Shown: positions 1,326-57,912 of the stretch, in pieces
How the letters are laid out: each line of letters opens with the position of its first letter
Numbering within the stretch: the first letter of the stretch is position 1
Assembly (NCBI GenBank): GCA_019359435.1
Contig: JAHHHI010000085.1
Span: 1-64,000 of the forward strand
Reading direction: 5' to 3'
Origin: Kaiparowitsia implicata GSE-PSE-MK54-09C
GTDB lineage: Bacteria > Cyanobacteriota > Cyanobacteriia > Elainellales > Elainellaceae
Length of the DNA stretch: 64,000 nt
The notes under the pieces: model-generated
The model's input: only the letters and a program-made list of their open reading frames with translations
What the model was told of the DNA's origin: nothing
Database searches by the model: none
Made by a program: the position numbers and the translations under genes

Positions 1326-1335
1326 TGCGTATCCA

Positions 1336-1350: not shown

Positions 1351-1429
1351 CCCTCGCATGCTAAGGAACAGGGTACCGCCTGTCGAGGTGATTCCCTCGC
1401 GGGGGCGCGGGGCAATATAAGGGGGCCAA

Positions 1430-4729: not shown

Positions 4730-4732
4730 TCC

Positions 4733-10164: not shown

Positions 10165-10174
10165 GGCTAAGAAC

Positions 10175-13600: not shown

Positions 13601-13604
13601 CCAG

Positions 13605-16982: not shown

Positions 16983-19261
16983 CGACACCTCTCGACGCAT
17001 TGGTCGCGGCACTGCGCGACGCCGCGAGCTACAACGCCGCGGCCGAAGCCCCGCCGGAGGCCATCGTCTGGTGCGATGCCCAGCACGAATTTCTGCCGCT
17101 TCTGCCTGCTTTGCGCGATCGTCTGCCGGAACTGCTCACCTATGGCGAATTCGATCTCGCCATGCGCACCGGCCCGGCGATCTGGCTCCGGGCAGCAACT
17201 GTGCGCGCAGTCGACTCCGTGTCGTGGCCCGAAGGCGCGACGCCGATCATCTATCTGCCCGGCATCGGCCGCGAGACCCTTAAGGGGGCTGAGGACTGCC
17301 CGGCGCTCTTGCAGCCGCTAATCTGGTTCACTGTCGCCGGTTCGTTCTTCGGCCACGTTAACGGCAAGGACTGGACATTGCGCGGCTTTCTGGCTGCGGA
17401 GCGCGGATCGCTAAAGCTGACGCTTGCAGATGACGTGAACACCCGCGCGGCGCTCGCCCATGCCGCACTCAGATTCTGCACCCGTCCAATCGAGGAATTG
17501 CGCGGCAAGCGCTGGGATGCCGATCAGCTCAATTCGCTGCTGGCGCCTGATCTCGCCGCCGACATGCTTGACTGGATCGATGGCGCTTTCTCCGAGGTGG
17601 CCGATGCCGGCCGTTTTGCCGCCTTCGCCAGCATCGCCGAGAGAGAGCTGAAATTCGATCCACGCAAGCTTTCGCGCCAGGACGCGGTCACACGTCTGGC
17701 AAAGCGGGAGGGGCGTTGGGCTGCCATATGGTCCCGGTTCGCAGATTCCACCGGCTATGCCGGGGTCGTTGGCTATCTGGGTGCCGCAGAGCCGGGAACA
17801 CTCTTCGATCACGCGGAAAACCGAGACTCCTACCCGAAGCTCAACGCGCAAGCCGAGATCAAGCTGCGCGAGGAACTCGGAAAATGCGCCGATCTCTCGC
17901 TGGCCGAGGCCCGGCATCGTATTGCGACGCTGGAGAATGAACATGGCTGGCGGCGCGAGACCGTCTGGGCAAGACGCGGAGAAGCACCCCTAGCGCGAGC
18001 GCTCTCGCACCTTGCCGCCGTAGCGAAGGCAATTCCGTTGCCGAGCCATGACGGTGCGGCCCTTGCTGAAGCCTATGTTGCGGATGGAGCCCGGACGGAT
18101 TGGGCGGCCATGGCCGCTCTCGAAGCCGCGCCACGGGAACTGGACCGTGTCGCGGTGACGACCGCGTTGCGTGCGACCTATCTACCATGGCTCGAGGAAG
18201 GCGCGCTGGCGCTCCAAGAGCTCGTTCGCTCCGGCAAGGTTCGCTTCGCGGGCGCTCCAACTTCCAAGCCCACCGCCTCCACCATCCTGTTCGTCGATGG
18301 GTTCCGTATGGATCTGGCGCATGAGCTTGTCCGCCTGCTCGAAACGGAGGGTGTCACAGTCGGCCTCGGCTGGGCATGGTCAGGTTTTCCAACGGTCACT
18401 GCCACCTGCAAGCCTATGGTGTCGCCCGTGGCCTCGATGCTCATTGGCCCTTCGGCAACCACCGATGTCCTGCCGCTCTCCCAGGACGGCAAGCCGGCGA
18501 CCAAGGCTGTGCTGTTCAAGCTGATGCAAGCCGAAGGCTGGGAAACCGACAATACCTTGCTGTCCAGCGGGAAGCTCTGGGCGGAGACGGGGCGCTTTGA
18601 TGAGGAAGGACATGCGCTCGGCGCTCGCCTCGCCGAGCGGCTGTCGCCAGGAATCCGCGATGCCGCAGATCGGGTTCTTCAACTCGTCCGCCAAGGGCGA
18701 AGCGTCCGCATCGTCACCGATCATGGCTGGCTGCTAATGCCCGGCGGCTTGCAGCAGGCCGCTCTGGATATCAGCCTCGTTGAGCCGAACGGGAAGAGGA
18801 CGCGCTGCGCGATGGTGAAGTCGAAGGCGCAGACGTCCTATCTTCAGGTTCCCTGGTCGTGGAATGACGAAGTTTCGATTGCTGCCGCAACTGGCGCACG
18901 CTCTTTCTATGCCAGTTACGAGTATGCCCACGGTGGGATCAGCCCACAGGAATGCGTTCTGCCGGTGCTAGAAGTCGCCGGCAGTGGAATGCCGAGAGAC
19001 GTGTCCATTCATCGGGCAGCATGGGAAGGATTGCGTCTGCGCGTCGAGGTGTCCGGCGGCGCGGACCTTCATGTCGATCTCCGGCTCGGCGCAGAAACCA
19101 GCGGCCCGACCCTAATCAAGGGGGGCCGCGTACTCGATGAAAATGGTCGCACCTCATTTCTGGTCAGCGACGAACACGAACGCGAGGGCGTCTGCCTGGT
19201 CGTGCTCGATGACAACAATCGGGTGCTTGCCCACCGCGTTCTGACGGTTGGAGGGGAGTGA
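16979..19261 (+). CDS. pglZ: BREX alkaline-phosphatase-like protein PglZ (type B)
   Basis: A 760-residue protein with GTG start overlapping pglX. It carries the alkaline-phosphatase-superfamily metal motifs expected in PglZ: LFVDGFRMDLAHEL (~residue 438) with the nucleophile region, and VRIVTDHGWLLMPGG (~580) with the D-H-G metal ligands. Near the end ISPQECVLPVL is another PglZ hallmark. PglZ proteins have metal-dependent phosphodiesterase or nuclease activity and are required for BREX. The long helical N-terminal region before residue 400 fits the shorter type-B PglZ. The stop lies just before the brxL start. Confidence 0.88.
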   Translation: MTTPLDALVAALRDAASYNAAAEAPPEAIVWCDAQHEFLPLLPALRDRLPELLTYGEFDLAMRTGPAIWLRAATVRAVDSVSWPEGATPIIYLPGIGRETLKGAEDCPALLQPLIWFTVAGSFFGHVNGKDWTLRGFLAAERGSLKLTLADDVNTRAALAHAALRFCTRPIEELRGKRWDADQLNSLLAPDLAADMLDWIDGAFSEVADAGRFAAFASIAERELKFDPRKLSRQDAVTRLAKREGRWAAIWSRFADSTGYAGVVGYLGAAEPGTLFDHAENRDSYPKLNAQAEIKLREELGKCADLSLAEARHRIATLENEHGWRRETVWARRGEAPLARALSHLAAVAKAIPLPSHDGAALAEAYVADGARTDWAAMAALEAAPRELDRVAVTTALRATYLPWLEEGALALQELVRSGKVRFAGAPTSKPTASTILFVDGFRMDLAHELVRLLETEGVTVGLGWAWSGFPTVTATCKPMVSPVASMLIGPSATTDVLPLSQDGKPATKAVLFKLMQAEGWETDNTLLSSGKLWAETGRFDEEGHALGARLAERLSPGIRDAADRVLQLVRQGRSVRIVTDHGWLLMPGGLQQAALDISLVEPNGKRTRCAMVKSKAQTSYLQVPWSWNDEVSIAAATGARSFYASYEYAHGGISPQECVLPVLEVAGSGMPRDVSIHRAAWEGLRLRVEVSGGADLHVDLRLGAETSGPTLIKGGRVLDENGRTSFLVSDEHEREGVCLVVLDDNNRVLAHRVLTVGGE

Positions 19262-19262
19262 C

Positions 19263-21311
19263 GTGATCGCGCTTGACGAATTGGATCGCAAAGCCGCCGC
19301 TGCCTTCCCAGGCCATATCGTCAGAAAGGATCTGGTGCGACGCTTCCGGGGCCAGTTCCCCGTGCCGACCTATGTGGTCGAGTTCATGCTCGGTCGTTAT
19401 TGCGCCAGCACGGAACCCGAGGAGATCGAGGAAGGTCTCCAGATGGTCCAGTCACAATTGTCAGATCGGACTGTTCGCGCCGGCGAAGAGGAGTTGTTCA
19501 AGTCGCGAGCACGTGACCGCGGATCGGTGCGCATCATCGACATCGTGACCGCCAGGCTGGATGCAAAAACCGACAGCTACCTCGCTACCCTTCCGAGCTT
19601 ACGGCTGAACGACGTGCGCATTGCGGACAAGATCGTTCACGATCATGAGCGGATGCTGACGGGCGGTTTTTACGCCGAGGTCGAGCTCGGCTACGACGCC
19701 AGCATCGCACAAGAGAAAGGCGGGCGGCCTTTTGAGGTCATGAACCTGCGCGAGATTCAGCTCTCCACACGCGACATTCTCGACAAGATCGCGGTCGGAC
19801 GCGCCCAACTGACCACAGCCGACTGGAAGAATTTCCTGTTACGGAGTGTCGGTCTGGAACCTGAAAAGCTGAGCCAGCGCGCCCAGGACGCGATGTTATT
19901 GCGCATGGTTCCGTTCGTCGAGGCCAACTACAACATTGTCGAGCTGGGTCCGCGCGGCACTGGCAAGAGCCATTTGTTCCAGCAAGTTTCGCCCTACGCC
20001 CATCTGGTTTCGGGCGGCAAGGCGACCGTCGCTCGCATGTTCGTCAACATGTCGAACGGCCAGCGTGGGCTGGTCTGCCAATACGATGTTGTCTGCTTCG
20101 ACGAGGTGTCGGGCATATCCTTCGACCAGAAGGACGGCGTCAACATCATGAAGGGTTATATGGAGTCCGGCGAGTTCTCGCGCGGCCGCGAGAGCATCCG
20201 CGCCGAAGGCAGTATCGTGATGGTCGGCAACTTCGACGTTGACGTGCAACATCAGCAGCGGGTCGGCCATCTCTTCGGGCCTATGCCGCCCGAGATGCGC
20301 AACGACACGGCTTTCATGGACCGGATCCATTGCTATCTGCCGGGATGGGATGTTCCGAAGATGAGCAAAGATCTCTTCACCGACCAATTTGGCCTGGTGA
20401 GTGACGTTCTCGCCGAATGCTTCTCGCGGCTACGAGCTCAAACCAGGGTCAATGTCCTTCCGGGTCGCGTGCATTTCGGCGGGGCGCTTTCCGGACGCGA
20501 TCAGAACGCCGTCAACAAGACGGTCTCGGGCCTATTGAAGCTAATGTACCCCGACCCCGCCACGACTGCTCCCGATGAGGATCTGGAGTGGGCCGTGCGT
20601 CTTGCACTCGAGGTGCGCCGACGGGTTAAGGAACAGCAGAAGCGCATCGGGTCGGCCGAGTTTCGGAACACCCAGTTCAGCTATGTGATGGGCCTCGACG
20701 GTGTAGAGAAATTTGTCTCGACACCTGAGCTGCAAAGCGAGGACAGCATCGGCTCCGATCCCCTGCCGGCGGGCCAGGTATGGGCCATCAGTCCCGGTGG
20801 TCAGGACGAAGCTGCGGGCTTGTTCCGGATCGAAGCCACCGAGAACAGCGGCAGCGGAATTCGCATTCTGAACCAATCGCCTCCGGCGCCATTCAGAGAA
20901 AGCGTCCGGATCGCCGAGCAGAACCTCTATGCACGCTCCCGAGACCTGATTGGCGAACGCAACCCCCGCGAGCATGAATTTGCGGTGCAGCTCCGTTCCT
21001 TTGATGCAGCTAAGCAAGGCGGCCAAATTGGCGTCGGCGTACTGGTAGCGCTTTGCTCGGCGCTGCTCGGCAAACCACTGAAGGGCGGCCTAATCATTTC
21101 CGGTGCAATTACCTTGGGCGGCTCGCTTGAACCGATCCACAATCCGATCGACGTCGTCGAACTGGCGTTGGAGAAGGGAGCAAATGCCATTCTGCTCCCG
21201 GTCGCATGCCGCCGAGCGCTAATTGATCTTTCCGATGACGTCGCAACTAAGGTACAGGTATTATTCTACGCTGACGGTGCAGACGCTCTTCGAAAGGCGC
21301 TGCATGACTAA
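19263..21311 (+). CDS. brxL: BREX AAA+/Lon-like protein BrxL
   Basis: I choose the GTG at 19263 (682 residues, starting MIALDELDRK) because a good purine-rich site (GGAGGGGA, 19250-19257) sits at normal distance and BrxL proteins begin with a LDELDRK-type sequence. A TTG at 19248 is also in frame. Walker A is GPRGTGKSH (~228) and Walker B VVCFDEVSG (~275). The C-terminal ~150 residues resemble the Lon proteolytic domain, but the catalytic Ser region (normally GPSAG) reads GGQIGVG and the region of the catalytic Lys is IHNPIDVVE, so the protease appears inactive. BrxL is an MCM-like DNA-binding AAA+ ring that is dispensable for methylation but needed for phage restriction in type 1 BREX. It ends the operon. 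Confidence 0.9.
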   Translation: MIALDELDRKAAAAFPGHIVRKDLVRRFRGQFPVPTYVVEFMLGRYCASTEPEEIEEGLQMVQSQLSDRTVRAGEEELFKSRARDRGSVRIIDIVTARLDAKTDSYLATLPSLRLNDVRIADKIVHDHERMLTGGFYAEVELGYDASIAQEKGGRPFEVMNLREIQLSTRDILDKIAVGRAQLTTADWKNFLLRSVGLEPEKLSQRAQDAMLLRMVPFVEANYNIVELGPRGTGKSHLFQQVSPYAHLVSGGKATVARMFVNMSNGQRGLVCQYDVVCFDEVSGISFDQKDGVNIMKGYMESGEFSRGRESIRAEGSIVMVGNFDVDVQHQQRVGHLFGPMPPEMRNDTAFMDRIHCYLPGWDVPKMSKDLFTDQFGLVSDVLAECFSRLRAQTRVNVLPGRVHFGGALSGRDQNAVNKTVSGLLKLMYPDPATTAPDEDLEWAVRLALEVRRRVKEQQKRIGSAEFRNTQFSYVMGLDGVEKFVSTPELQSEDSIGSDPLPAGQVWAISPGGQDEAAGLFRIEATENSGSGIRILNQSPPAPFRESVRIAEQNLYARSRDLIGERNPREHEFAVQLRSFDAAKQGGQIGVGVLVALCSALLGKPLKGGLIISGAITLGGSLEPIHNPIDVVELALEKGANAILLPVACRRALIDLSDDVATKVQVLFYADGADALRKALHD

Positions 21312-30153: not shown

Positions 30154-31092
30154 TCAGGCAGCGCGAGCCATGACGGGCGCGCCCATGAGGGACAGGATCC
30201 ATTCGCTTGCCGCTTGCGCGGCGGTCGCGGCCCGGAAGATGGCGCGTTTGTCGTTGCGGAGCGCCCCGATCCAACTTGAGACGTAAGCGGCGTGGTCCTC
30301 GCGCTCGGTCGGTTCCATGCCAAGCTGCGCGCAAAGCATCGCTGCGCCAATTTCAGCTATGAGCTCTTCGGCGGCCCTGATTTCCTTTGATTTTCCATAT
30401 TGATAGAGCGTTTCGCGGTTAAGCCGGGACGTGTGCCCGCTGCTGTGCACTACCTCGTGCGCGAGGGTCGCATAGAAGGCATTGCCGCTCACGAAATCCG
30501 CGAAGGCGGGCATCGTGATGCTGTCCAAAATCGGGTGATAATAGGCGCTGTTGCCGCCTTCACGGTACGGGACCTGATAGCGGGCAAAGGTTGCGTCAAG
30601 TCCCGGATCGCGCTGGTCACGGTTCTTTAACGCGATCTGCGGCGCGGGATATTTGGCAATGTCGAGGCTGTCGATCTGCTCGACATTGAACACGACATAT
30701 TTCTTCAGATAGCTGCGGGTCCGGTCCTCCTCGCCACCACCGCTCGGCTGCTCCTCGGCCTCCGCATCCTTGGGGGTGAAGATTCCGGCATGAACAACAA
30801 GATTGCCCTTCTCGCCCTTCCTGACCTGTCCGCCCAACTCGCTCGCTTGCCGGTAAGTCATCCAATAGGGGTTGCTATAACCGCGCGCCATCGCGGCGGA
30901 CCAAAGGAGGAGAATATTGATCCCGCGATAGGCGGTGCCCTCGTGCCGCAGGGGAAGCGATGCCGCGCCGCTTGCCCATGACGGGGTCCAAGGCCGGGTG
31001 CCTGCTTCCAGCATGGCGACGATCTGGTTGGTCACTTCCTCGTAAATGTCGATCCGGTGAGGTTTGGCGCTACGGGCTGCGGTGCGGGCCAT
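30154..31092 (-). CDS. ardC: ArdC-type antirestriction protein
   Basis: 312 residues. The N-terminal ~130 residues match the ArdC/DUF1738 single-stranded-DNA-binding domain (IYEEVTNQIVAMLEAGTRPW, YRGINILLLW, YWMTYRQA, VRKGEKG). The C-terminal half is a zincin-like metallopeptidase with HEVVHSSGH (residues 212-220, HExxH metal motif). ArdC proteins protect the incoming plasmid strand from host restriction. Its presence on a plasmid that also carries BREX is notable. It is leftward, preceded by a 455-bp stretch containing a structured element of the A/B type, and is followed by three small coupled genes. Confidence 0.87.
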   Translation of the reverse strand: MARTAARSAKPHRIDIYEEVTNQIVAMLEAGTRPWTPSWASGAASLPLRHEGTAYRGINILLLWSAAMARGYSNPYWMTYRQASELGGQVRKGEKGNLVVHAGIFTPKDAEAEEQPSGGGEEDRTRSYLKKYVVFNVEQIDSLDIAKYPAPQIALKNRDQRDPGLDATFARYQVPYREGGNSAYYHPILDSITMPAFADFVSGNAFYATLAHEVVHSSGHTSRLNRETLYQYGKSKEIRAAEELIAEIGAAMLCAQLGMEPTEREDHAAYVSSWIGALRNDKRAIFRAATAAQAASEWILSLMGAPVMARAA

Positions 31093-31547
31093 GTCTTTGT
31101 TTCCCTTCCTAAATGGAGTTGAAGGCGATGGGTGCCATCGGCTTCTGCCCGCTGGCGAAGCGGGTCGGGGAATGGCGCAAATCAGGGCCGGTCAGCGGGG
31201 AGGGGGATCACCCGGCCTGCACGGAACGTGGGTGAAGGAAGGGCGGGGAAACCCCGCTGATCGCCAAGCGAGGCCGAGAGGCCGAGACGGTCCAGCCCTT
31301 GCGCCAGGGGGCCGGAACAGGCCCCGGAAACGAACCGGTTAACGCCGACGGCCATCGCCGTCGCCATGCCCCGCGCGAGCGATCGAAACCCGGATGGGCC
31401 GAGACGGATTGCGGCTCGGTCGGAACCGCCAGGTGCAGATAGAGCGCGGTCCCGAACGGGACGCGCTATCCTTGTCGCCTTGTCAGAATAGGTTTGACAG
31501 CATCGTTCGCCGCACAAATATTTCGGCCACCGGGGGGATGGACTTTA
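31093..31547 (-). ncRNA. Candidate structured leader, copy C, upstream of ardC
   Basis: 455 bp without a gene between ardC and the divergent DUF3644 gene. + strand coordinates: hairpin 1 CCCGCT 31148-31153 with AGCGGG 31159-31164 around the same GGCGA loop as copies A and B but with different stem bases; hairpin 4 GCGGCTC 31411-31417 with GAACCGC 31423-31429, which pairs fully on the leftward strand if G-U is allowed; then a long stem AGCGC..GTCCC with GGGACGCGCT at about 31441-31465 with one bulged base. The loop identity and changed but pairing stems support a conserved leader on the leftward transcript or on the single strand. Confidence 0.5.
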
Positions 31548-32753
31548 ATGCCAGGAAGGAAAAAAGGACATCATCTGGAGCGTTGGGAAGTCGCGCTCGT
31601 AAAGGCCATGCTCGCAACCCAGAAATATAACGACCAGGACGTGCTTGCCTATTTCACCCGTCCGACCCGGACCATCAATCATCGGCTGATTTCCGAGATA
31701 CGGTCCGATAAGAAACACAAGGCCATAAAGGCAGCCAACCCCGACCAGCTTACCGAGTTTCTGCAAAACTGGCCTGACCTCGACGGTGAAACCGGCCTCA
31801 GCGTGCGCGGAGACGAGCTGCTGATAAAGGCGCGGGAGGCAATGATCGCCGCGGTTCATAATTTCAATGCGGCGGGACTGACGTTCCGATCCGAGATTTT
31901 CATCACCACCGCCATGATCGCATGGACCTATCTGTGTCACGCATGGTTCAAACGCGAAGGCATCGACTATCGCTACAAGGAAAATGGCGCGGTCAAGAAG
32001 CTCGCCAGCGGCGCCGACGCCTATTGGGAACTGGGCAAATGCGTCCGCAACAACAAGCTTCCGATCACCAAGGGCGTGCGGCAGAATCTCGAACTGTTGC
32101 TGGAGATCCGGCACGAGATCGAACATCGCTCGACGGACCGGATCGACAATGCGCTAGGGTCGCTGATGCAGGCGTGCTGCATCAATTTCAACGAGGCCCT
32201 GCGCATGTGGTTCGGCGAACAATTCGGCCTGGAGCGGCGCTTGCCAATTGCGCTCCAGTTCGTAACTTTCAACGCCGCCCAGGCCGCGGGGCTAAAAAAG
32301 GCTTCGGCACTGCCGTCCACCATCGCCGCGAGAATGGATGCCTTCCATGCAGCAATGAGCGACGATGAGCTTCGTGACCCGGCATTCTCCTACCGGGTTG
32401 CCTTCGTACCGAAGGTGGGCAGCAAGGCCAGCAAATCCGATCTGGCTGTCGAGTTCATCAAACCCGATTCAGCCGAGGGTAAGGCGATCAATTCGGTGTT
32501 GCTCAAGGAGGTCGACAAGGCGCGCTACACCGCAAGCCAAATTATCAAGGCTATGCAGGATGATGGATTTCCCCGGTTCAACCAGGCCCACCATACGGCC
32601 TTGTGGAAGGAGCTGGACGCCAAAGACCCGGAAAAGGGCTTTGGCCGCGAAGGTGACTATAGCGGCACCTGGGTCTGGTTCGACAGTTGGATCGCCCGCG
32701 TGAAAGCGCATTGTCAGGAAAACGCTGCAAAATATGTCGGTGGAGCTGAATAA
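31548..32753 (+). CDS. DUF3644-domain protein
   Basis: 401 residues from the ATG at 31548 (MPGRKKGHHLERWEVALVKAML). The upstream in-frame start at 31494 would read through a promoter-like region. The N-terminal ~60 residues resemble a small HTH-like segment (YNDQDVLAYFTRPTRTINHR), followed by the DUF3644 region with WTYLCHAWFKREGIDYRY and LLLEIRHEIEHRS, whose R-x-E-I-E-H pattern recalls HEPN-like helical folds. Function of DUF3644 is unknown. It occurs near defence genes in various genomes. Here it is followed by a gene fragment and then the nucleotidyltransferase pair, on the same strand. Confidence 0.75.
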   Translation: MPGRKKGHHLERWEVALVKAMLATQKYNDQDVLAYFTRPTRTINHRLISEIRSDKKHKAIKAANPDQLTEFLQNWPDLDGETGLSVRGDELLIKAREAMIAAVHNFNAAGLTFRSEIFITTAMIAWTYLCHAWFKREGIDYRYKENGAVKKLASGADAYWELGKCVRNNKLPITKGVRQNLELLLEIRHEIEHRSTDRIDNALGSLMQACCINFNEALRMWFGEQFGLERRLPIALQFVTFNAAQAAGLKKASALPSTIAARMDAFHAAMSDDELRDPAFSYRVAFVPKVGSKASKSDLAVEFIKPDSAEGKAINSVLLKEVDKARYTASQIIKAMQDDGFPRFNQAHHTALWKELDAKDPEKGFGREGDYSGTWVWFDSWIARVKAHCQENAAKYVGGAE

Positions 32754-47102: not shown

Positions 47103-48895
47103 GGAGAGGAGTGACGCTGGCGCTCGGCTTGCCCGTAGCGCTCGTCCTCCTGGGCCTCACCGGCTCCATCGTCGCGTGGTTCGTACTCGGGCTTCCGGCA
47201 TCGGCCTACGACCCAATGAAGATGCCGGCATTCTTCTGGTACTATCGCGGTGATCCCGTCGTACTGAAGGCGCTGGGCGCGGGCCTTGCCGCCGGATCGG
47301 TCCTGTCTGGACTGCTGCTCTTTTGGTTTGTAACGCGCAAGCCGCCGCTTCACGGGGCCGCGCGCTTCGCGAAGGAAGGGGAAATCCGGCGCAACGGTTT
47401 CCGGGGGGATGAGGGTATCGTCCTCGGCAAGAAATCGGGACGCTTCCTGATTTTCGAAGGCAATGAGCATTGCATCGTGGAGGCCCCAACCCGTTCGGGG
47501 AAAGGCGTGGGCGTCGTCATTCCCAACCTCTTGAGCTGGGCAGGCTCCACGGTCGTCCTCGACGTGAAGCGGGAAAACTATGAGGCCACGGCGGGGTTTC
47601 GCGCCAAACACGGCCAGGCCGTGTTCCTGTTCAACCCGACCGACCCGGAAGGCCGAACCGCGCGCTATAATCCCTTGGGCTATATCGACAGGACCGATGC
47701 CGATCAGGCCATAATCGAGCTTCAGAAGATCGCGACGATGCTGTTCGTTCCGCCAGAGCGGGGCGAGCCGTTCTGGACCGATTCCGCAAGGACCGCATTT
47801 GTAGGCGTGGGTGCCTATCTCGCCCAGGCCGATGCGCCGTTCACCATCGGCGCCATCTACCGGCTGATGACCACCGGCGATACGCGGGGATATTTCCGCA
47901 AGGTGCTCGATGATCGGTCGCTTGTCTTTTCCACCGGGTGCCGCAATGCCCTGGCCGACTTCACGTCGGGCGCGGACAACACATTCGCCGGCATCGTCCA
48001 GACCGTCACCTCCAAACTGAGCCTATGGCTCAATCCGCGTGTCGATGCAGCGACAGAGGAAAGCGACTTCGATCTGCGTGAGCTGCGCATGCGGCCGATG
48101 TCTGTTTATCTCGGCGTCTCGCCCGACGAACTGGATCGTGTGGCGCCGCTCTACAATCTCCTGTTCCAGCAGCTCGTCGATCTCAATGTTCGCGACCTCC
48201 CCGATGTGACCACGCCGATCAAGGTTCTGGTCCTGCTCGATGAGTTTGCCCGCCTCGGCCGCGCCCAGGTGATTGCCAGCGCATTCTCCTATGTGGCGGG
48301 TTACGGAATCCGGCTGCTCCCCGTTATCCAATCGCGGTCTCAGCTTCGTGCGGTCTATGGCGAGCATGTCGCTGACGAAATTGTATCAAATTGCGGCGTC
48401 GAAGTTGCCTTCACGCCGAAGCAACTGAGGGTGGCTAACGAGCTTTCCGAACGTATCGGTTATATTGGCCAGGAGGCCATCACCCGCTCGCTGACGATCC
48501 ACGGCATCTTGGCCAACCGTTCCAAGTCGATGTCCGATCACCGTCGCGCGCTCCTGCTCCCGCAAGAGCTGATGCAGTTTCCCGGTGACGAGCTGCTGTT
48601 GCTGCGCGGAGGGATGCCCCCCATTCGGGGCGACAAGATCCGCTATTATGCCGACAGCCATTTCACGCGCCGGGTCGCCCCGGCACCGATCGTCGCGCCG
48701 ATCCCTCGGCGCATTCGGGAGGATGAAGAACTTCCTCCCTGTGTGCTGCCTGACGCCGACCAGCTTGCAAACCCAGACCCCGAAACCTTCGCCATGGATT
48801 GCGTCGTCATCTCGGAGTTCGAGGACATTCTGGTCGACGTCGAGGCAGATCAACGCGGCCACGAGCGCGTGGGCGTGATCGAGCAGGAGCGATAA
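47099..48895 (+). CDS. virD4: VirD4/TraG-type coupling protein
   Basis: 598 residues. Two N-terminal hydrophobic segments (about 5-30 and 58-80), then the coupling-protein ATPase: Walker A APTRSGKGVGVVIPNLL, Walker B VLVLLDEFARLGR, and GIRLLPVIQSRSQL. It brings the relaxase-DNA complex to the T4SS channel. Its start overlaps virB11. The C-terminus is acidic (EFEDILVDVEAD), often where relaxosome proteins bind. Confidence 0.93.
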   Translation: MRRGVTLALGLPVALVLLGLTGSIVAWFVLGLPASAYDPMKMPAFFWYYRGDPVVLKALGAGLAAGSVLSGLLLFWFVTRKPPLHGAARFAKEGEIRRNGFRGDEGIVLGKKSGRFLIFEGNEHCIVEAPTRSGKGVGVVIPNLLSWAGSTVVLDVKRENYEATAGFRAKHGQAVFLFNPTDPEGRTARYNPLGYIDRTDADQAIIELQKIATMLFVPPERGEPFWTDSARTAFVGVGAYLAQADAPFTIGAIYRLMTTGDTRGYFRKVLDDRSLVFSTGCRNALADFTSGADNTFAGIVQTVTSKLSLWLNPRVDAATEESDFDLRELRMRPMSVYLGVSPDELDRVAPLYNLLFQQLVDLNVRDLPDVTTPIKVLVLLDEFARLGRAQVIASAFSYVAGYGIRLLPVIQSRSQLRAVYGEHVADEIVSNCGVEVAFTPKQLRVANELSERIGYIGQEAITRSLTIHGILANRSKSMSDHRRALLLPQELMQFPGDELLLLRGGMPPIRGDKIRYYADSHFTRRVAPAPIVAPIPRRIREDEELPPCVLPDADQLANPDPETFAMDCVVISEFEDILVDVEADQRGHERVGVIEQER

Positions 48896-48897
48896 AT

Positions 48898-49677
48898 ATG
48901 GCTGAAAACCTCAACCTTCCCGACCCGCGCGAGGAAGCAACTCGCAAGCGTCCCGACGTGGAAATGCCAGAAGAGCTGCAATCCCGCTTTCTGCGTGTGG
49001 GAAACAAGCTCTATCGCAACGCCCATGATAAAACGCCGGTCGCGACGATATCGCCTGACCGCATCAAGGCCCGCGATGCCAGCGCCCTCCCCGATCTAGT
49101 GCGGCTAGCCAAAGCGAATGGTTGGACTTCTCTCAAGATCAACGGCGATCCTGATTTCAAGCGGGCCGCCTATTTGGCCGCTGCCGCACAAGGCCTGACG
49201 ATCGAGGGCTACAGGCCGGATGCCAAGACCCGTGCGGCGGCCGAACGGGACCAAGCACGGCAACCCGGGCCGACCACTACACGCACTCAGACCCGTCAGA
49301 CCGACGGTGCGGAGAAGGAGCCACGCGCGCCACTAACCCCGAACCAAGTTCGTGACAGCAAGGAAAAGCCCGATCAGAGCCTAGATCTCGCTGAGCGCTT
49401 CCGCCGACAATCTCACACTGAAAATGCCAAAGACCCCGCCTTGCGTCGCGCTCAAAGCCATGTCGCGCACGCCATGGTCATCGCCGCCAACCGTTTCCCC
49501 CAGGACCGGCAACAGCAAAAGGCATTTGTCGATCAGCGGAAAGATGAAGTGGCTGACAGAATCGAACGTGGCGACCGCATCGCCGGCGTTCAAGTCCGCC
49601 GGCAACAAGATGAGCGTATTCGTACACTTCAACAGAGCCAGATTTTGCAACGACAGCGATCGCCGAGCGGCCGCTGA
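48898..49677 (+). CDS. LPD7-domain protein of the transfer operon
   Basis: 259 residues from the ATG at 48898, 2 bp after the virD4 stop. Residues about 35-110 match the large polyvalent protein-associated domain 7 (LYRNAHDKTPVATI, LVRLAKANGWTSLKINGDPDFKR, YLAAAAQGLTIEGYRP). LPD7 occurs in relaxases and in proteins carried into recipients. The C-terminal part is Arg/Gln/Asp-rich and helical (VIAANRFPQDRQQQKAF). It could be a translocated protein or an accessory of conjugation; I cannot say which. It ends the operon. Confidence 0.75.
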   Translation: MAENLNLPDPREEATRKRPDVEMPEELQSRFLRVGNKLYRNAHDKTPVATISPDRIKARDASALPDLVRLAKANGWTSLKINGDPDFKRAAYLAAAAQGLTIEGYRPDAKTRAAAERDQARQPGPTTTRTQTRQTDGAEKEPRAPLTPNQVRDSKEKPDQSLDLAERFRRQSHTENAKDPALRRAQSHVAHAMVIAANRFPQDRQQQKAFVDQRKDEVADRIERGDRIAGVQVRRQQDERIRTLQQSQILQRQRSPSGR

Positions 49678-49716
49678 GCTGTCCTCCAGTTATAATGGGC
49701 CTAATGAGCGCCAAGA

Positions 49717-51423
49717 TCACCCAAGTATGCGATCACACGCTTCGCGCGTTCCGCAGACGAACAACACGGACTTCGCGCGCGACATGCCCACATAGAGCGT
49801 CTCGCGGTCCCGGCTCACATCGCAATTGTCAAATGCCCAAAGGATTATCACTGCCCGCTCCAATCCCTTGAAGCGCGCCACAGTATCGACAGTGAGGCGG
49901 CCCGGCCCGAAATCCTCCACGCGCCCGAGTTTCACAGCTGCCGGCAATGGCAACTTCTGGAGCGCGCGCTCCCGCGCTGGACGGTCGCTGGCATCGCACA
50001 GGAGGATCGCGATCTCATGCGGGGCCACATCCTCGTCGACCACGAGCTTCGTGACTAACGAGCCAATGGATTTCGCCTGTTTTTCCATATCCGAGGCGAG
50101 GAGACGGTCGACGCCGACCCCGACAATCTCTGGCGGCTCAACGGCTGCCCCCCTATAGTGGCTGTAGGCAGCCGCGTGGATCGCATCGGTATTGCGGCAG
50201 TTGCGGTCGAGTACCATCGGCTCGCCGGGCACTGGGATGTTGGCAGACCGGCGATATATGTCCTGGTTTTCGTCCAGAAACACATAGAGCATGGCTTCGT
50301 CGGGGCGGGTGAGCAGCATCTCGACGGGCAACCAATATTCGTCACCAAAGTCCTGCGCCTCGTCCACGACGATCGCGTCGTAGATGGGATCGAGCGCGTC
50401 GACTGCGACAGCCAGTGCCATTGGCATGTGATGATCGAACTCGTCGCCGCCCGGCAGGTCGGCGCGGGCCTCGGCGAGCAGATCCCGCGCCTTTTTCACT
50501 TTCGCGCGGTCGATCCAGCGGTGACACACCTGGTGAAAGGTCGCGACATCGAGACCCTCGATCCCGGCACACTGCTCCCGAAGGTGATCCGCAAGGCCAC
50601 GATTGTAGCAAAGCAGCAGAGTCCGCATCCCTTCCGACGCTAAACGAACTGCTTTCTCGCGCGCTATCAGGGTCTTTCCGGTTCCTGCGCCCCCGGCGAT
50701 CATCACCCTGCGCTGTCGCCGCAGCATGTCCAGAATAGCAGCCTGGCGATTTGTCAAAGCGAGCCTGGCATCGTCCTCGTCGGATATGCGAGCCGAAAGG
50801 AGCGGGCGGGTCGAGACTGTGCGCGCAAAGAGAGCCACGAGGGCATCCATGCCGCGCGTTCCAATTTGCTTGCCGGCCCTTTCCTCGCCTTCCCAATAAG
50901 CGAATGCCTGCTCTACCCATGCGTTGAGGTCAGAGAGGTCGCGCCGATCGCCGATGATTTCGACGGGCGCGTCGGGTCCGCGCAGCCGGCTTCCATCGCC
51001 GACACCGGGCACGAAGACTGCATATCCGAGATTGAACCGCCCGATGTCGAGCTTCTTCCAGGCGGGGCTCTCCCTCAGCTTCTCCAGCAGTGCGAACTTT
51101 CCGCGCCGCGCCTGATCGAACGGGTTCTTGATCTCGTGAGTGACGTTATCCCCGTCGATCGAGACCCAGGTCCGAGTGCCATAGTCGAGCGAGACGCGTC
51201 CGCCTTTCACCTCGATAGCAAGCAAACCACGAGCAGGATGGGCGATGAGGATGTCAGTTTCCCCCTCGCGGGGGCCGCCGCCGCCAGGCCGCGAAATCCA
51301 TGCGACCGAATGAAGGATGGCGTAGTCGGGTCCGAGCTGCTCTGCGAGGGCTCGGTAGACGATGAGCTCTGCGTTGGAATCGGAGACCGCGTGATCCGGG
51401 TCAGGGTAGCATCGGGCCATCAA
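49717..51423 (-). CDS. NERD nuclease-domain / UvrD-like helicase
   Basis: 568 residues. The N-terminal ~150 residues form a NERD domain with the restriction-endonuclease-type acidic pattern: GETDILIAHP (Asp) then LLAIEVKGG (Glu-x-Lys). Helicase motifs follow: Walker A AGGAGTGKTLIA, VVDEAQDFGDEYW, then TVDTVARFKGLE and LYVGMSRAK at the end. SF1 helicase with nuclease is predicted. It is the second gene of a two-gene leftward operon: the ATG at 51423 overlaps the stop of the sacsin-like gene (51420). It faces the end of the transfer operon. Confidence 0.82.
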   Translation of the reverse strand: MMARCYPDPDHAVSDSNAELIVYRALAEQLGPDYAILHSVAWISRPGGGGPREGETDILIAHPARGLLAIEVKGGRVSLDYGTRTWVSIDGDNVTHEIKNPFDQARRGKFALLEKLRESPAWKKLDIGRFNLGYAVFVPGVGDGSRLRGPDAPVEIIGDRRDLSDLNAWVEQAFAYWEGEERAGKQIGTRGMDALVALFARTVSTRPLLSARISDEDDARLALTNRQAAILDMLRRQRRVMIAGGAGTGKTLIAREKAVRLASEGMRTLLLCYNRGLADHLREQCAGIEGLDVATFHQVCHRWIDRAKVKKARDLLAEARADLPGGDEFDHHMPMALAVAVDALDPIYDAIVVDEAQDFGDEYWLPVEMLLTRPDEAMLYVFLDENQDIYRRSANIPVPGEPMVLDRNCRNTDAIHAAAYSHYRGAAVEPPEIVGVGVDRLLASDMEKQAKSIGSLVTKLVVDEDVAPHEIAILLCDASDRPARERALQKLPLPAAVKLGRVEDFGPGRLTVDTVARFKGLERAVIILWAFDNCDVSRDRETLYVGMSRAKSVLFVCGTREACDRILG

Positions 51424-54400
51424 TCAAGGATCTTCAGCGAGGAGTTGAAGGGGATGCCGCGTCGTCCTTCGAGAGATCCAAAATCGACCACGACGAATGG
51501 AATGAGACCACGTGATTTGATCTCGACGACCACGCCCTTGCCCCAAGTGTGGTGCTGAACCTTCAACCCTTCTTTCAGGTGGAGGTCGCGCGACGAAGCT
51601 CGCTCTTCGGAAGCCTCGCGCCAGTTATGATCGAACCAATATTCTTCGACCTTGCCGAACGGATTGCCGATCGCCGTGACCTTCTGGCGCTCTAGGTCGC
51701 GAGCATGTTCGACGATGTAGATCCAAAACTCTTCCGGATGCTCGCGGGCCATCGAGAATTGGACATGGCTGAGCTTGATACCACGCTCCGTCCATTCGTC
51801 ATCGAGACCTTTGACCTCGATCAGGCGCCGGCCGCCGCTCGGCGACTTCGAGATTATGTCGAACCCGGGATTGAAATGTGGCTGTCGCTCAGGCTCCCAG
51901 CCACGGCCCTGCTCATAGCTTAAGGCTGCCTTCATGGCTGCCGCGTCGATCAGATCGGAGATGTCCTCCGTTCCGGCCGCGGGACTGGCGTCACCATCCC
52001 CACGGGTGCCGTTGCGCGAGACATAGGAGAGCATGCGAGAGCGCCGCACCTGTCGCTCTTCTGCGGCATCGTTCTGCCGGCTGCTGCCACTCCGGAATGG
52101 CGAACGGCCACCCCGACTTTGCCCGTCGGACGGCCCGCCGCGGTGCGCATTGTCACCCACAGCGTCGCCGCTCGTCGAGTCATTCTCCTCCGGATCGGCT
52201 CCGAAGGCGCCACGACTTGAGGCAGACCCGTAAGCGTCGTCATCGTGGTCGACATCCAATTTCTGCTCATCATCGTCTTCGCCGCTGGCGCTATCCTCCG
52301 CGTGTTCGTTGTGGGGCCTACCTCCCGCCGAACCAGCAGAGCCCCCTGCAGCGGAGGTAGTAGTACCTGCTCTGCCTTCACCTGCAGCTCCATTCCCCGA
52401 CACAGCACCCGTCGCGTTCAACTTCGTGGAGCCGGCATCGTCGACGGCAGGATCTTCCGGGATTTCATCGCTATCGAGATTTTCGTCGGATGACGCTTCA
52501 TCATTCTCAGGGAAGGCTGCCGCAGCCTCCGCCGGCTCGTCGTTCAATGTCTCGTCATCGGGTTGGTCCTCGAGCTCACGCCCGACCTCGATGCTGACAT
52601 CAAGGTCGTCCGGTGCCTTGAAGTCCGATGCGAGCAGCGCCTGCTCTGCATCCGCCCAGTCCCGATGCGACATGATGTAGGCCGCCGTCATGCACAGCGG
52701 TGGTATCTCCGTGGTCGGGCAGAAGCGCTCCACCTCGGAGAATAGGGCGCGGAACGCCCCCGCCCAATCCACTCGGCCAGACGGGCTGCGGAGATGCAGC
52801 ACTCCCGCCTCATGGTCGAGATAGGCTGGCGCCGATGCCGCCGGGGACCTGACGGGAGGTTCGAACGCATCGATCTCGGCCTGCACCAGCAACTGATCGG
52901 ACAGGCGGATCTCAATCCCTAAAAGGATTTCGCGCAATGCCTGGCGGCTCGCGCGATTTGGCGCCAGCCAGAGAAGCAGGTCAGCTCGTGACTGTAGGAG
53001 CGATGTTGCATCAACCGCAATTCGTCCCTCAGGCTCCGCCGCCAGCCGAAACTGCGCAATGTCGGTGAGAGCCGGCACGTCTAGGCGCTTCAGAAACCGG
53101 GATGAGGCGGATCGGCTGACATCCGGCAGTCTAATAAGGCGCTCGTTGAGCACGGACCCGAACGATGCTGCCAGCTGCTCGGAATCCAACCAGACCGCTT
53201 CCCCCGTCCAGGTCGCCCCGCCATCGAGGTTGAGGAACGCGTCCTCGTCGATGAGCATATCTACAGCTTCCGCCGCTCCAGCGTCTTCACGCTCCAGCGC
53301 TTCCGCGAGCGAGGCGAGACAGCGGCCATGGATCGCAATGTCAGTCGCTGACGAATTGGAACTGGCTGCGATGCGCAGTGCGAGGATCGCGAAGTGGCGC
53401 GGTTCTGGTGAATCGAGGACGCCGAGCCGACGATATAGCTGGTCGCGCTGGCGCATCCGCGAGCTGGCAGTATGCCAGTGCCCTCCGAACATAGGAGGGA
53501 TCCAGAAAACCTCGCCCGCGCCGATGAAGCCGACGTCGGGAACGTGGATGAAGTCGGTCCCTTCAAGGCGACCGATGCAGGCCGCTTCGTCTCCGCGCTC
53601 CAGCCTTTCATTCAGCATCTGATAGGTCAGATCGTTCACTGCCGAACCCGTACTCATGCAATGCTCGAGATGTGCCACGATCTTTTCAGTCGGCGGCTCC
53701 GCCGGCATCTCGATCAAATCCAGGAACTCGAGCACCGCCGCATTCGCTTGCCGCAACGCAGTCATCTCGACCACCGGCACCTGGGACGAAAAGCCGGGTG
53801 CGCGGCCCGCTCGGTAGAGGCCATTCGGCGGATATCTAAAGCCATCCTCGCGCTCTCCGTCGACGATAGCCGCAAGAAACTCTACTTCTTTAAGCCGGCT
53901 CAACGCGACCCGATCCTGGTCATCGAATCGCGACCAGCGTTCCAGCACATGTCGGATGATGGGTGTGGTTCCAGCGACTATGGCGTCGAGGCCGCCGCCC
54001 GCCTCCGCGATGGCTTCGATCCTATCGACGATGTGTTCGGCCGCGACCGTGAAAGGCATGCCAAGGCGGTCGAAAAGGTCTCGGGACCGTGACTGCACGT
54101 CTCCAGGAATCCAGGCCTCATCTACCCAGCGGGCCGGATCGGTTCCAAGGATGGCCTCAAGGGGGGCAGACCAAATGTACACTTCGTCGGGGCGAGCATA
54201 GCTCTCCGCGCGGGTCCGTACGAACGCTAGCTTGGCAAGCACTCCCAGCGTCCCGTCTTCATCCAGCTGGGACCGGTGGTTGACGATTTCGGTAATTAAC
54301 GCGCCATATTGCTGGCGCGTCACGCCGTTTTGGACGATCTCCTCTAGGTGTTCCGACACATAATCGCGAAAGGTTAGGACATCGACCTGAAGAACGTTCC

Positions 54401-56432
54401 GCGCGAGCTCGCGCATGTCGGGGACAAAAAGCCGGCTTTCGACAATTTCGAAGTGACCGATGGGGTCGCGAAAGTCCCCAGGCAGCTGCCCTCGCGATGG
54501 GCTGACGAACCCAGTGCCCGTACGCAGCATCGGAACATCCACAAGCACGCTGGCAACGGTGCCGGTCTTTCGGTCCATGGGAAAGGATGTCAGCAGGGAA
54601 TAGAAGCGTCGCACATCGGCATCGGCTATTCCGATAGCAGCCTCGGCGGCAGCCTCATCGGTGATGGCGCCGGCCAGGTCCGAGGCGAGATCATCAAGGA
54701 GATACTCGGGCACGAGGCTTGCCAGATGAGGCGACTGAAGCACGTCGTCATGCACTACGCGTCGAGCAGGGATCACCTTCCGCAGCACGTGACGCGACAC
54801 ACCCATTGGCAACCTGCGTGCGTCCCTTGGCCTGATCGGAGCGTCATCGACATCGGTGATGAAGGGGATGGCCTTCAGTTTAGGTAGCACCGTGGTCAGG
54901 ACGTTTCGTTCGGACGGGGCCTCGATCATCACGCTGATCGCTGACCAGAGCCTTCGCAGTTGTTCGCCCCCGCCGCCCGTCGCGTCGTCTCCGCGGGCCT
55001 CCAGCGCAGCAACGAGACTTGAAAGACGAAGCTGAAGCGCCCCAATGCTTGCCAATACGCTCCAGTGGCGACGAAGTTCGGGGTGGATCAACGCGAGACC
55101 CAGATCGGCTACCGCATTCTGATCAACCGTCGTCATCAAATCCGGCGGCAGGAACGTCTCCTTCGCCACGCGCCATTCGCCGCGCGTTGTCCAAATGGAG
55201 GGCGTCTCGGCCGCGACCGCCGCAAGCCTGTCCCAGAACGACTTGAACGCCGGCTCACCCTTGCGCTGGAACGCGCACTCCGCCAGCGTCCAGAACCGCG
55301 TCGGGCCGAGCAGATCGCGAATACGGACGAAATTCTCTGAAAGCGCTGCCGCCGCAGTCTCGATGAGCGCTTCGTTCCAATATTTCTCGTGCTGCTCACC
55401 CTCGAGGACGATCGCCTGCCGGCTGGCATGTGGGAAGAAGTCGGCATTCACATGGATCGGCATGCGCATGGACTGGCGCGTCGGCAGATATGCGTAGAGC
55501 AGGCCGTCGACCTGCTCGAGATTGATGGGCACCGCGACGTTGACCGTCAGCGAACGCTCCAACCGCGTCAGCGCCTCGAACCGCTCGAACAGGTTCGCAG
55601 CCGCCAGGACGTCATCGGCCCGTCTCGAGAGAACGAGCCATCGCTGGGTAACATCGGATGGTGAGAAGCGTAGGGTGACATCCTCGCCCGAACGGTCGAT
55701 GTCGACCGAAAGGACAGGATGGCCGTTGCGCCGCAGCTCCACCTGCTCGACATGACGCAGAAACAGGAGGCTGCCCTGCAGAACGAGGTCAACCTCCGCG
55801 ACAACCTTGTCGGCGACATCCTCCGGTGTGGGTGAGGCGTTTAGGCCGTCGCGGACTTCGGATTGAGACGATGCCCAGGGCAGGATGAACTGGGTCCCGA
55901 CTGTCGGTCCGACATCACTCTTCATGACCTCCTGGGTCTGCGGGTTGAGGCGCAACTCGACACCGGAGGATCGGACGATCGGCGTGTCCGTGATCTGGTA
56001 GACTGAGACGAAGCCGATGCCGAACCGCCCAATCTGCTCCGCAGCATGCAGCTTGCTCCTGCTCCCCATCTCGGAAATCGCATGGAAGTTACAGGGCCGC
56101 TTCAGACCTGACACATCGCCGGTTCGAAGCCATGGGCACTCCGCATCATGGAGGCCGCAACTGCTGAACTCCCCATCGTTTCCGACGACGAGCGCATCAT
56201 CCCGCGCATCGAAGAACAACCGCTTGGATTCGGCATCGTCCGCATTCTGAATGAGCTCCAGCGCCATTATGCCGTAGCCCTGCAAACCCTTCAGGGCCTG
56301 CTCGATGTTACCGAGCAGGTTCGCCCGATATGGAATAGTCACCGCTGGCCGCTTACTCTCAGCAACCAGCGTTGGGCCCCCCCCATCAACTTGGGCCGCA
56401 TTGCCATGCTCATGTCGAACCTGATCGTGCAC
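51420..56432 (-). CDS. Giant sacsin-like GHKL ATPase with DUF3883 end
   Basis: 1670 residues, GTG start at 56432. N-terminal residues ~35-250 are a sacsin/Nov-type GHKL (Hsp90-like) ATPase: ALELIQNADDA (Asn63), DALVVGNDGEFS, and IGRFGIGFVSVYQITD as the glycine box. A large unassigned central region follows. From about residue 1290 comes a long Asp/Glu/Ser/Gly-rich disordered stretch (DDETLNDEPAEAAAAF, SGEDDDEQKLDVDHDDD). The C-terminus is a DUF3883 domain with NPGFDIISKS and RRLIEVKGLDDE, whose Asp and Glu-x-Lys look like a PD-(D/E)XK nuclease core. Overlaps the NERD-helicase gene by 4 bp. I infer a two-gene defence-like system; no described system name is claimed. Confidence 0.8.
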   Translation of the reverse strand: MHDQVRHEHGNAAQVDGGGPTLVAESKRPAVTIPYRANLLGNIEQALKGLQGYGIMALELIQNADDAESKRLFFDARDDALVVGNDGEFSSCGLHDAECPWLRTGDVSGLKRPCNFHAISEMGSRSKLHAAEQIGRFGIGFVSVYQITDTPIVRSSGVELRLNPQTQEVMKSDVGPTVGTQFILPWASSQSEVRDGLNASPTPEDVADKVVAEVDLVLQGSLLFLRHVEQVELRRNGHPVLSVDIDRSGEDVTLRFSPSDVTQRWLVLSRRADDVLAAANLFERFEALTRLERSLTVNVAVPINLEQVDGLLYAYLPTRQSMRMPIHVNADFFPHASRQAIVLEGEQHEKYWNEALIETAAAALSENFVRIRDLLGPTRFWTLAECAFQRKGEPAFKSFWDRLAAVAAETPSIWTTRGEWRVAKETFLPPDLMTTVDQNAVADLGLALIHPELRRHWSVLASIGALQLRLSSLVAALEARGDDATGGGGEQLRRLWSAISVMIEAPSERNVLTTVLPKLKAIPFITDVDDAPIRPRDARRLPMGVSRHVLRKVIPARRVVHDDVLQSPHLASLVPEYLLDDLASDLAGAITDEAAAEAAIGIADADVRRFYSLLTSFPMDRKTGTVASVLVDVPMLRTGTGFVSPSRGQLPGDFRDPIGHFEIVESRLFVPDMRELARNVLQVDVLTFRDYVSEHLEEIVQNGVTRQQYGALITEIVNHRSQLDEDGTLGVLAKLAFVRTRAESYARPDEVYIWSAPLEAILGTDPARWVDEAWIPGDVQSRSRDLFDRLGMPFTVAAEHIVDRIEAIAEAGGGLDAIVAGTTPIIRHVLERWSRFDDQDRVALSRLKEVEFLAAIVDGEREDGFRYPPNGLYRAGRAPGFSSQVPVVEMTALRQANAAVLEFLDLIEMPAEPPTEKIVAHLEHCMSTGSAVNDLTYQMLNERLERGDEAACIGRLEGTDFIHVPDVGFIGAGEVFWIPPMFGGHWHTASSRMRQRDQLYRRLGVLDSPEPRHFAILALRIAASSNSSATDIAIHGRCLASLAEALEREDAGAAEAVDMLIDEDAFLNLDGGATWTGEAVWLDSEQLAASFGSVLNERLIRLPDVSRSASSRFLKRLDVPALTDIAQFRLAAEPEGRIAVDATSLLQSRADLLLWLAPNRASRQALREILLGIEIRLSDQLLVQAEIDAFEPPVRSPAASAPAYLDHEAGVLHLRSPSGRVDWAGAFRALFSEVERFCPTTEIPPLCMTAAYIMSHRDWADAEQALLASDFKAPDDLDVSIEVGRELEDQPDDETLNDEPAEAAAAFPENDEASSDENLDSDEIPEDPAVDDAGSTKLNATGAVSGNGAAGEGRAGTTTSAAGGSAGSAGGRPHNEHAEDSASGEDDDEQKLDVDHDDDAYGSASSRGAFGADPEENDSTSGDAVGDNAHRGGPSDGQSRGGRSPFRSGSSRQNDAAEERQVRRSRMLSYVSRNGTRGDGDASPAAGTEDISDLIDAAAMKAALSYEQGRGWEPERQPHFNPGFDIISKSPSGGRRLIEVKGLDDEWTERGIKLSHVQFSMAREHPEEFWIYIVEHARDLERQKVTAIGNPFGKVEEYWFDHNWREASEERASSRDLHLKEGLKVQHHTWGKGVVVEIKSRGLIPFVVVDFGSLEGRRGIPFNSSLKILD

Positions 56433-56823
56433 GAATAGCCCCCCTTGAAGATCGATATATGTTCGACGCGAGAATGCCGATAGGGCCTGGTAGAGGAGAA
56501 TTTTGTATGCAGTGTCCTGATCTGAGCTTAGGCATTCAGCTGCGCTAGAAAAGGAATGTCACAATTTATTGCCTAGCCGATCATGTGGAACCGCAACGGA
56601 TACAGCGCCCCTCCGGCACGAAGAGCTCGTCCGGGCCAAAAATCGCTTTGGAGTGGAACGCGTGATTTTCGGCCGCAGCTCCGCATATGAGCTTTGAGGC
56701 CGAGCGCCAGCGCTGGGACCAAACATGAACAAACGACTGGCTTCGGATCGCCAGATCAACGATTGAACGACGAGAATGGGGCGCGAAGCAGCCAACGACC
56801 TAAGAGCCAGCGAAGCCCTTCCA
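56433..56823. other. Intergenic region upstream of the sacsin-like operon
   Basis: 391 bp between the divergent-looking start of the sacsin-like gene and the end of the relaxase gene (both leftward). I see no convincing gene: open frames here are long-G+C background without good ribosome sites. The segment 56440-56580 is more AT-rich than its surroundings (AATTTTGTATGCAG, CACAATTTATTG) and should contain the promoter of the sacsin-like operon. No strong repeat was found. Confidence 0.4.
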
Positions 56824-57912
56824 TTATCTTGTTCGGTCAGGCGGGCCATGACCGGAGGGGTTCGATTTCCCCTGCCCTTCCTGTTGTTGCTCCCTCGCAT
56901 GACGCACCCGCTCAACCGCGTCCTTCAACACACGATCGGGCACGGTTTCGATGGTGGGCCGATCCTTCAGGAACGCGCGCAACTCGCGCGCAAGAGCCTG
57001 GTCGCGCGGATCACCCGTCCGATCGAAACCATCCGCAGCCTTCTCATACTCCTGGCGGGTTTTTTCCCAACGCTCCTTCGCTCGTGCGACAAAGGGCGGG
57101 GATTCTGCTTTCCCGCTCGCGATGGCCAGCGCCTCGCGCGCCTGACGCAAATCCGCCTCGGTGGGCTGCCGTGACGCGCCCTGCCGGATTTTCTCGCGCA
57201 TCTGGGCGAGAGCCATACTCGTGCCCGCCCTGCCCTGCCCGCGCGTCCAGCGCGGCGTCGCCTCGCACTCCACACCCCGGCTCCGTAGGGCTTCGGCAAA
57301 CGCCTCTCGAAAATTGAATAGGTCTTCGCGCCGAGGATCGAAACGCTCACCGTCCAGCCCCTCGGCTTGGACCGTCAAATGCACATGGGGCCTGGGCGTG
57401 TCGGTGTGCAGCGCCATCAGATAATCATGATTGTCGCCAAGCATTCGCTCAGCCGTCTCGCGCACGGCCTGCCGAACCGTTTCAGGATTCGTCCCTTCCG
57501 GCATCGAAAACACCATTGAGACAGCAGACACTGTAGCCCGTTGCCGCCAGTAGAGCGGATCGGACCACTCCTGTGCGATCTGCTGGACCCCACCCTTTTC
57601 CGTTATGATTTCACCATCGCGAGTCTCGATCGCGATCTCCCCATTGCGGCCGATATAGCTCAGGTGAGCGCCCAAATGATCCGCGCCCTTCTTACGCCCC
57701 GTTACTTTCACCAGAACTTCAGGCGCTTTGCGGACCACGCGGGCTAGGACGGCGCGAGAATCCGCGTGTCCGACATGCGCGACCGACTTGAACTGGCCGG
57801 TCTGCTTCAAGAGATGCTTGGCGTATTTGATATTGGGATCGCCGGACACGCGCGGCCGAAACGTCGGCTTGAGCACACCCCATAATTCATCCTCGCGCTC
57901 ACCGATGGCCAT
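56824..57912 (-). CDS. MOBP/VirD2-type relaxase
   Basis: 362 residues from the ATG at 57912; an upstream in-frame start at 57930 lies inside mobC. The putative nicking Tyr is Tyr86 in HLSYIGRNGE, and the metal-binding triad is in LHTDTPRPHVHLTVQ (H-x-D-x4-H-x-H). This fits MOBP relaxases, which nick oriT and stay linked to the 5' end. The C-terminal half is helical and basic, ending in Gly/Pro/Arg-rich disorder, which may be the secretion signal. Its ATG overlaps the mobC stop. It is small next to TraI of RP4, resembling VirD2. Confidence 0.87.
   Translation of the reverse strand: MAIGEREDELWGVLKPTFRPRVSGDPNIKYAKHLLKQTGQFKSVAHVGHADSRAVLARVVRKAPEVLVKVTGRKKGADHLGAHLSYIGRNGEIAIETRDGEIITEKGGVQQIAQEWSDPLYWRQRATVSAVSMVFSMPEGTNPETVRQAVRETAERMLGDNHDYLMALHTDTPRPHVHLTVQAEGLDGERFDPRREDLFNFREAFAEALRSRGVECEATPRWTRGQGRAGTSMALAQMREKIRQGASRQPTEADLRQAREALAIASGKAESPPFVARAKERWEKTRQEYEKAADGFDRTGDPRDQALARELRAFLKDRPTIETVPDRVLKDAVERVRHAREQQQEGQGKSNPSGHGPPDRTR

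Follow-up and report, generated by a model that had tools for sequence, protein, structure and literature searches.

The locus described here raises the question of whether two adjoining genes on a plasmid contig, one encoding a very large ATPase and the other a helicase with a nuclease-like domain, act together in antiphage defence, and whether the system to which they belong already has a name. A preliminary description of the window (the whole stretch of 64,000 nucleotides that was analysed) had proposed a two-gene operon carried as defence cargo, and had recognised no named system. On the basis of the sequence comparisons presented below, our preferred reading, to which we assign a probability of roughly 0.6, is that the pair is plasmid cargo and constitutes a two-component form of Tiamat, an antiphage system. 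The operon-like pair is intact and conserved, with its frames located as had been claimed, and comprises the following features:

49717..51420, minus strand: NERD-UvrD SF1 helicase gene, 567 aa, with its ATG at 51420
49717-51423, minus strand: the mechanical helicase frame, with a TTG start at 51423
51418..51422, minus strand: stop/start junction TGATG, a 1-nt overlap joining tmtA and the helicase gene
51420..56432, minus strand: tmtA-like gene, 1670 aa, GTG start, with AAGGGGGG upstream
TmtA residues about 45-250: sacsin-type GHKL ATPase (Pfam SACS 45-168, 4.7e-18)
TmtA between ATPase and linker: long, mostly helical middle region
TmtA residues about 1290-1460: acidic low-complexity linker
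TmtA residues 1497-1581: NOV_C/DUF3883 (Pfam, 1.9e-14)
TmtA residues about 1607-1665: Tudor-like C-terminus of the PcrA/UvrD type (Pfam, sub-threshold)

By its sequence, the large protein is TmtA and belongs to the named Tiamat system, not to an unnamed one. The PADLOC TmtA profile PDLC03969 matches it over its full length with 1226 bits and an E-value of 0, residues 29-1665 of the protein being aligned with positions 5-1559 of the 1563 in the profile. The search against defence-system models that had been suggested earlier thus gave a named match for one half of the pair. The other part of the earlier statement stands, in that no description of the exact combination of TmtA and NERD-UvrD helicase was found in the literature searched. 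Tiamat was reportedly described by Millman and colleagues in 2022. Its mechanism is listed as unknown (PMC12926258, PMC10482375).

The domains of TmtA have been further analysed, and agree with those first proposed. The N-terminal ATPase is of the Bergerat or GHKL type, and its N-box ELIQNADDA (containing E59 and N63) and GRFGIGF box are invariant among relatives; the G1 box is NxGxF-like, not DxGxG. An AlphaFold2 model of the N-terminal region was built from 7 sequences, with plasmid-record sequences left out of the input, and has a mean pLDDT of 57, higher in the ATPase region. The fold is predicted to be like that of sacsin SR1, which aligns with the model over 164 residues (Z 15.4, rmsd 2.7) and ranks above MutL, MORC and Hsp90. 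The acidic linker (1300-1450) is only 30-35% identical between relatives, the rest of TmtA being far more conserved. Within DUF3883, the nuclease-like residues D1525, E1539 and K1541 (the last two forming E-V-K) are invariant among relatives (D, E and K in 9 sequences). The model of this domain has a pLDDT of 46, and matches to lambda exonuclease, Hjc and RecU-type folds appear only among noise.

The nuclease-like domain proposed for the helicase is identified by Pfam as NERD (residues 16-119, 1.5e-8), and is accompanied by UvrD-helicase, AAA_19 and UvrD_C_2. In the NERD domain D57 and K73 (the latter numbered from the TTG start) are invariant, and E71 is replaced by D in 1 of 19 sequences; little or no variation is seen in Walker A and B, DEAQDF, RNT, KGLE and the SF1 motifs that come later. 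The best PADLOC profiles are RTasNERD-Hel (2.7e-67, in two stretches) and C3a187 NERD+UvrD (6.4e-29), with weak matches to GajB (6e-7) and Nhi (4e-5). The nearest relatives of solved structure are Schlafen 11 (SLFN11) and proteins of the HelD and UvrD types (UvrD1).

The two genes had been described as overlapping by 4 bp. The junction, GATTGATGGCC, reads GAT TGATG GCC, and the overlap is instead a single nucleotide: the most likely start of the helicase is the ATG at 51420, whose first base is the last of the tmtA stop codon, and this 1-nt overlap is shared with L002, L003 and L004, the three closest relatives. A sigma-70-like promoter was looked for upstream of tmtA, and none was found. In comparison with Hoeflea, pN and pS are 0.19 and 0.69 for tmtA and 0.10 and 0.76 for the helicase gene; pN is thus well below pS for both, which indicates that both are real genes under purifying selection.

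The order of the pair is conserved. It is the same in all five TmtA loci above 39% identity, namely the window and four relatives (L002, L003, L004 and L035), as the preliminary description had proposed should be checked. The TmtA proteins of Hoeflea marina, Sulfitobacter undariae and a Rhizobiales isolate are 69, 61 and about 61% identical to that of the window, and the TmtA of a Sphingomonas naphthae plasmid 39-42%; the corresponding helicases are 84, 77, 74 and 58% identical. In each of the four the helicase lies directly downstream of tmtA; three of them show the 1-nt overlap, and in the remaining one the genes are 2 bp apart. In the Rhizobiales isolate, an inserted segment of about 2.3 kb, which has frames of its own, splits tmtA (L004:11839-14112), and the helicase is intact. 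Defence genes are found beside the pair in two of these genomes, in agreement with the proposed defence-island context: in Hoeflea (L002) it comes after PglZ-BrxL (BREX) and a group of ZacB/DrmD-like genes, and in L004 it is followed by ZacA-ZacB (Azaca-type).

Beyond these relatives the pair is not seen. The 11 more distant TmtA proteins examined are without it: no helicase neighbour was found for the next closest, from a Microvirga plasmid (33%), and the copies from Calothrix, from Deinococcus and from six genomes of cyanobacteria likewise have none. Since most of the TmtA examined have no helicase neighbour, the helicase would not be needed by Tiamat generally. A search of 289 alphaproteobacterial genomes found only Hoeflea, the query's own; cyanobacterial genomes, sampled by class, order and phylum, contain remote TmtA homologues as well as NERD helicases, and in none of them was the pair found. 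Phage records gave no relatives of TmtA, and viral contigs none of either protein, in a scan that used short exact peptides and so reaches only close kin. The helicase-linked proteins group together in the TmtA tree at only 91/92, with long-branch warnings, and the tree is compatible both with a single gain of the partnership and with its loss elsewhere.

These observations bear on a simpler interpretation, that this is an ordinary single-gene Tiamat lying beside a NERD-helicase defence gene with which it is mobilised but has no functional connection. Tiamat is represented in PADLOC by TmtA models only, as a one-protein system, solo TmtA is common, and NERD helicases also occur without TmtA. 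We nevertheless find this interpretation rather doubtful. The near-zero spacing and identical gene order hold across Rhizobiaceae, Roseobacteraceae, Rhizobiales and Sphingomonas, and in a tree of 23 helicases those linked to TmtA form one exclusive clade (100/100), separate from sister clades with other partners. The conserved translational coupling of tmtA and the helicase gene argues against a single-gene function in this clade.

The surroundings of the pair are those of a cargo slot on a conjugative plasmid:

48799..49677, plus strand: left flank, the gene after virD4 and last backbone gene (LPD7-domain family in siblings; 5' end uncertain)
49678..56903, no strand: cargo segment, from local blastn against sibling plasmid loci L099, L100 and L103
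56824..57930, minus strand: right flank, MobA/VirD2-type relaxase (Pfam Relaxase, 3.6e-16)
8793-21311, plus strand: BREX operon BrxA, BrxC, PglX, PglZ, BrxL (full-length profile matches), 28 kb from the pair
342-8469: WYL regulator, TM0106/RecB-like helicase with RNase_H_2, calcineurin-like exonuclease and SMC/SbcC-like ATPase

Homology to the backbone of sibling plasmids ends at 49677-49681 and restarts at 56904-56917. The position between transfer genes and relaxase noted earlier is therefore a variable 7-kb slot, of which the pair alone is the cargo. Each end region, searched on its own, showed no repeats that would mark the insertion. In sibling plasmids this position is occupied by AbiE-type genes, by AbiEii with Fic, or by almost nothing; in one (L103:3813-16847, AP027326.1) it holds a gene for a 4344-aa hypothetical protein together with type I secretion genes. 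The VirB4 of the contig is 96.5% identical to that of the Sphingobium TomTYG46 plasmid, marking the backbone as sphingomonad and conjugative, and the GC content is 0.59-0.63 (about 0.61); a sample of eleven further contigs from the same assembly gave 0.48-0.58. The assembly groups with the cyanobacteria, since a genome listed in its class carries the Calothrix PCC 7716 plasmid, with the gene also seen in L037. The simplest reading is that the contig is probably a contaminant of the cyanobacterial assembly from a co-cultured sphingomonad; acquisition of a foreign plasmid is a less simple alternative. The 79135-bp contig has no end overlap that would indicate circularity.

Other parts of the window also carry candidate defence genes. 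The block at 342-8469 is 86% identical to one that many Sphingobium plasmids carry ahead of DEAD helicases; in the window BREX takes their place. The block is possibly an unnamed, exchangeable defence module. The same plasmid has a PDC-S19/DUF3644 candidate defence gene (window 31494-32753) and an ArdC anti-restriction gene (30154-31092).

Since the pair fills a slot adjoining the relaxase of a conjugative plasmid, it could be asked whether it is a plasmid-against-plasmid module for exclusion of incoming DNA, in which the helicase-nuclease would cut DNA entering by conjugation, and not antiphage at all. Wadjet-like systems provide a precedent for anti-plasmid defence. We consider this improbable, as the sibling slots contain unrelated cargo (the AbiE-type genes, Fic and type I secretion cluster noted above), and the pairs of Hoeflea and L004 sit with BREX or Azaca genes, not with transfer genes.

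The C-terminus of TmtA has a Tudor-like region that the preliminary description had not mentioned. PF21196 (PcrA_UvrD_tudor) matches 6 of 9 TmtA C-termini, these being all that have residues in this region; the best match is that of the window copy (E 1.6e-4), and in the domain scan of TmtA, read to an E-value of 1, the match is weak and falls below Pfam's cut-off. The first three solved-structure matches of a TmtA family profile are UvrD/PcrA C-terminal domains (E 0.01-0.02). The helicase itself stops after motif VI, and has no Tudor-like domain. The Tudor does not track the helicase, because the solo Microvirga TmtA has it too. In PcrA and UvrD the Tudor domain binds RNA polymerase (PMC5397179); as the match here is sub-threshold, a link between TmtA and RNA polymerase is a lead only. 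On such a link, the pair might be a plasmid DNA-repair or R-loop factor, in which a sacsin-type chaperone would use its Tudor to hold a helicase at RNA polymerase. The type of the tail, the UvrD-family core of the helicase and its nearest solved relatives fit this idea, but we regard it as most improbable: TmtA belongs to a tested defence system, its distribution is sporadic (1 of the 289 alphaproteobacterial genomes), it is found in defence islands, and both proteins retain nuclease-like residues.

Comparison with named systems places the pair closest to Tiamat, with which it shares the full-length TmtA profile match, the sacsin-type GHKL ATPase and the C-terminal DUF3883. Tiamat is known as a single gene, and the pair differs in that tmtA is coupled to a NERD-UvrD helicase and carries a Tudor-like tail. 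It also lies on a conjugative plasmid, whereas in Actinobacteria Tiamat is almost always chromosomal (PMC10482375). Like the pair, Tiamat has been reported from defence islands, and from genomic islands as well (PMC12629846). The helicase shares its architecture, NERD followed by UvrD, with its best PADLOC matches, the DRT-associated RTasNERD-Hel and C3a187 NERD+UvrD; unlike in RTasNERD-Hel, its partner is TmtA, and no reverse transcriptase is adjacent, the direct neighbours being TmtA, the gene after virD4 and the relaxase. Gabija (GajB) and Nhi resemble the pair in the UvrD-type or NERD-helicase logic of antiphage defence. Gabija itself was rejected: there is no GajA OLD nuclease, the neighbour being TmtA, and the GajB matches are weak.

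A precedent for how the ATPase might act is VcSduA (Shedu type I-D), an antiphage protein in which a GHKL ATPase is fused to a PD-(D/E)XK Shedu nuclease and is proposed to control it (PMC12137116). TmtA similarly combines a GHKL ATPase with a C-terminal domain, DUF3883, in which the D and ExK residues expected of a PD-(D/E)XK nuclease are conserved. VcSduA differs in having another nuclease family (DUF4263), and in being a single protein without a helicase. The pair is not Shedu type I-D, as Pfam finds only SACS, NOV_C and the weak PcrA_UvrD_tudor in TmtA, and no DUF4263.

The best reading is that the GHKL ATPase gates or recruits the helicase-nuclease. TmtA would be the sensor and switch, binding an infection cue through its long middle region, or through the Tudor tail at a transcribing RNA polymerase. 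Binding would alter the GHKL domain in its ATP state and its dimer form, ATP cycling and dimerisation being suggested as the switch because of the VcSduA precedent. This change would license the helicase-nuclease; the putative nuclease in DUF3883 may be licensed with it. As the effector, the licensed helicase-nuclease would unwind and cut its target, invading or replicating DNA.

The helicase family extends well beyond Tiamat. Homologues of 28-35% identity adjoin DrmA and DrmB (L048-L051, and in another order L077) or DruE (L054 and L055), and others (L064 and L065) occur with an HmaB-like methylase and DpdF-like and PLD/PbeA-like helicases, a cluster that is possibly an undescribed system. 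Each partner type corresponds to a supported helicase clade (DrmAB 100/99, DruE 100/98, Hma-like 100/100), the exception being L077, which is placed elsewhere on a long branch. In the DISARM and Druantia loci the partner is a YprA-type SF2 helicase and not a GHKL ATPase, and neither DrmA-DrmB nor DruE is present beside the window helicase. NERD nucleases are known from other systems, including Mokosh I, Nhi-like, PglW and TALON (PMC10952713, PMC12839542, PMC12458937). The NERD-UvrD helicase thus seems to be a module that several defence systems have reused, and an interchangeable effector, because its sisters accompany DISARM, Druantia and Hma/Dpd-like genes. More tentatively, it may be a portable effector module adopted by sacsin-type ATPases, DISARM DrmAB, Druantia DruE, Hma/Dpd-like clusters and reverse transcriptases, which here, with the Tudor tail on the ATPase and not on the helicase, would form a transcription-coupled, ATP-gated antiviral helicase-nuclease.

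A second Tiamat branch is found in two cyanobacterial loci (L057 and L058), where a TmtA homologue of 1860 aa lies between an upstream GajB-like UvrD helicase and a downstream PD-(D/E)XK (PDDEXK_1) nuclease gene that overlaps tmtA by one base. These loci also have an additional conserved 700-aa gene. They are possibly a three- or four-gene Tiamat, and their arrangement implies that two or more Tiamat branches have helicase-nuclease partners, encoded by different genes. The presence of helicase or nuclease partners in two branches turns the control of a DNA helicase-nuclease by a sacsin-type ATPase into a testable hypothesis, and suggests that one helicase family is common to several otherwise unrelated immune systems.
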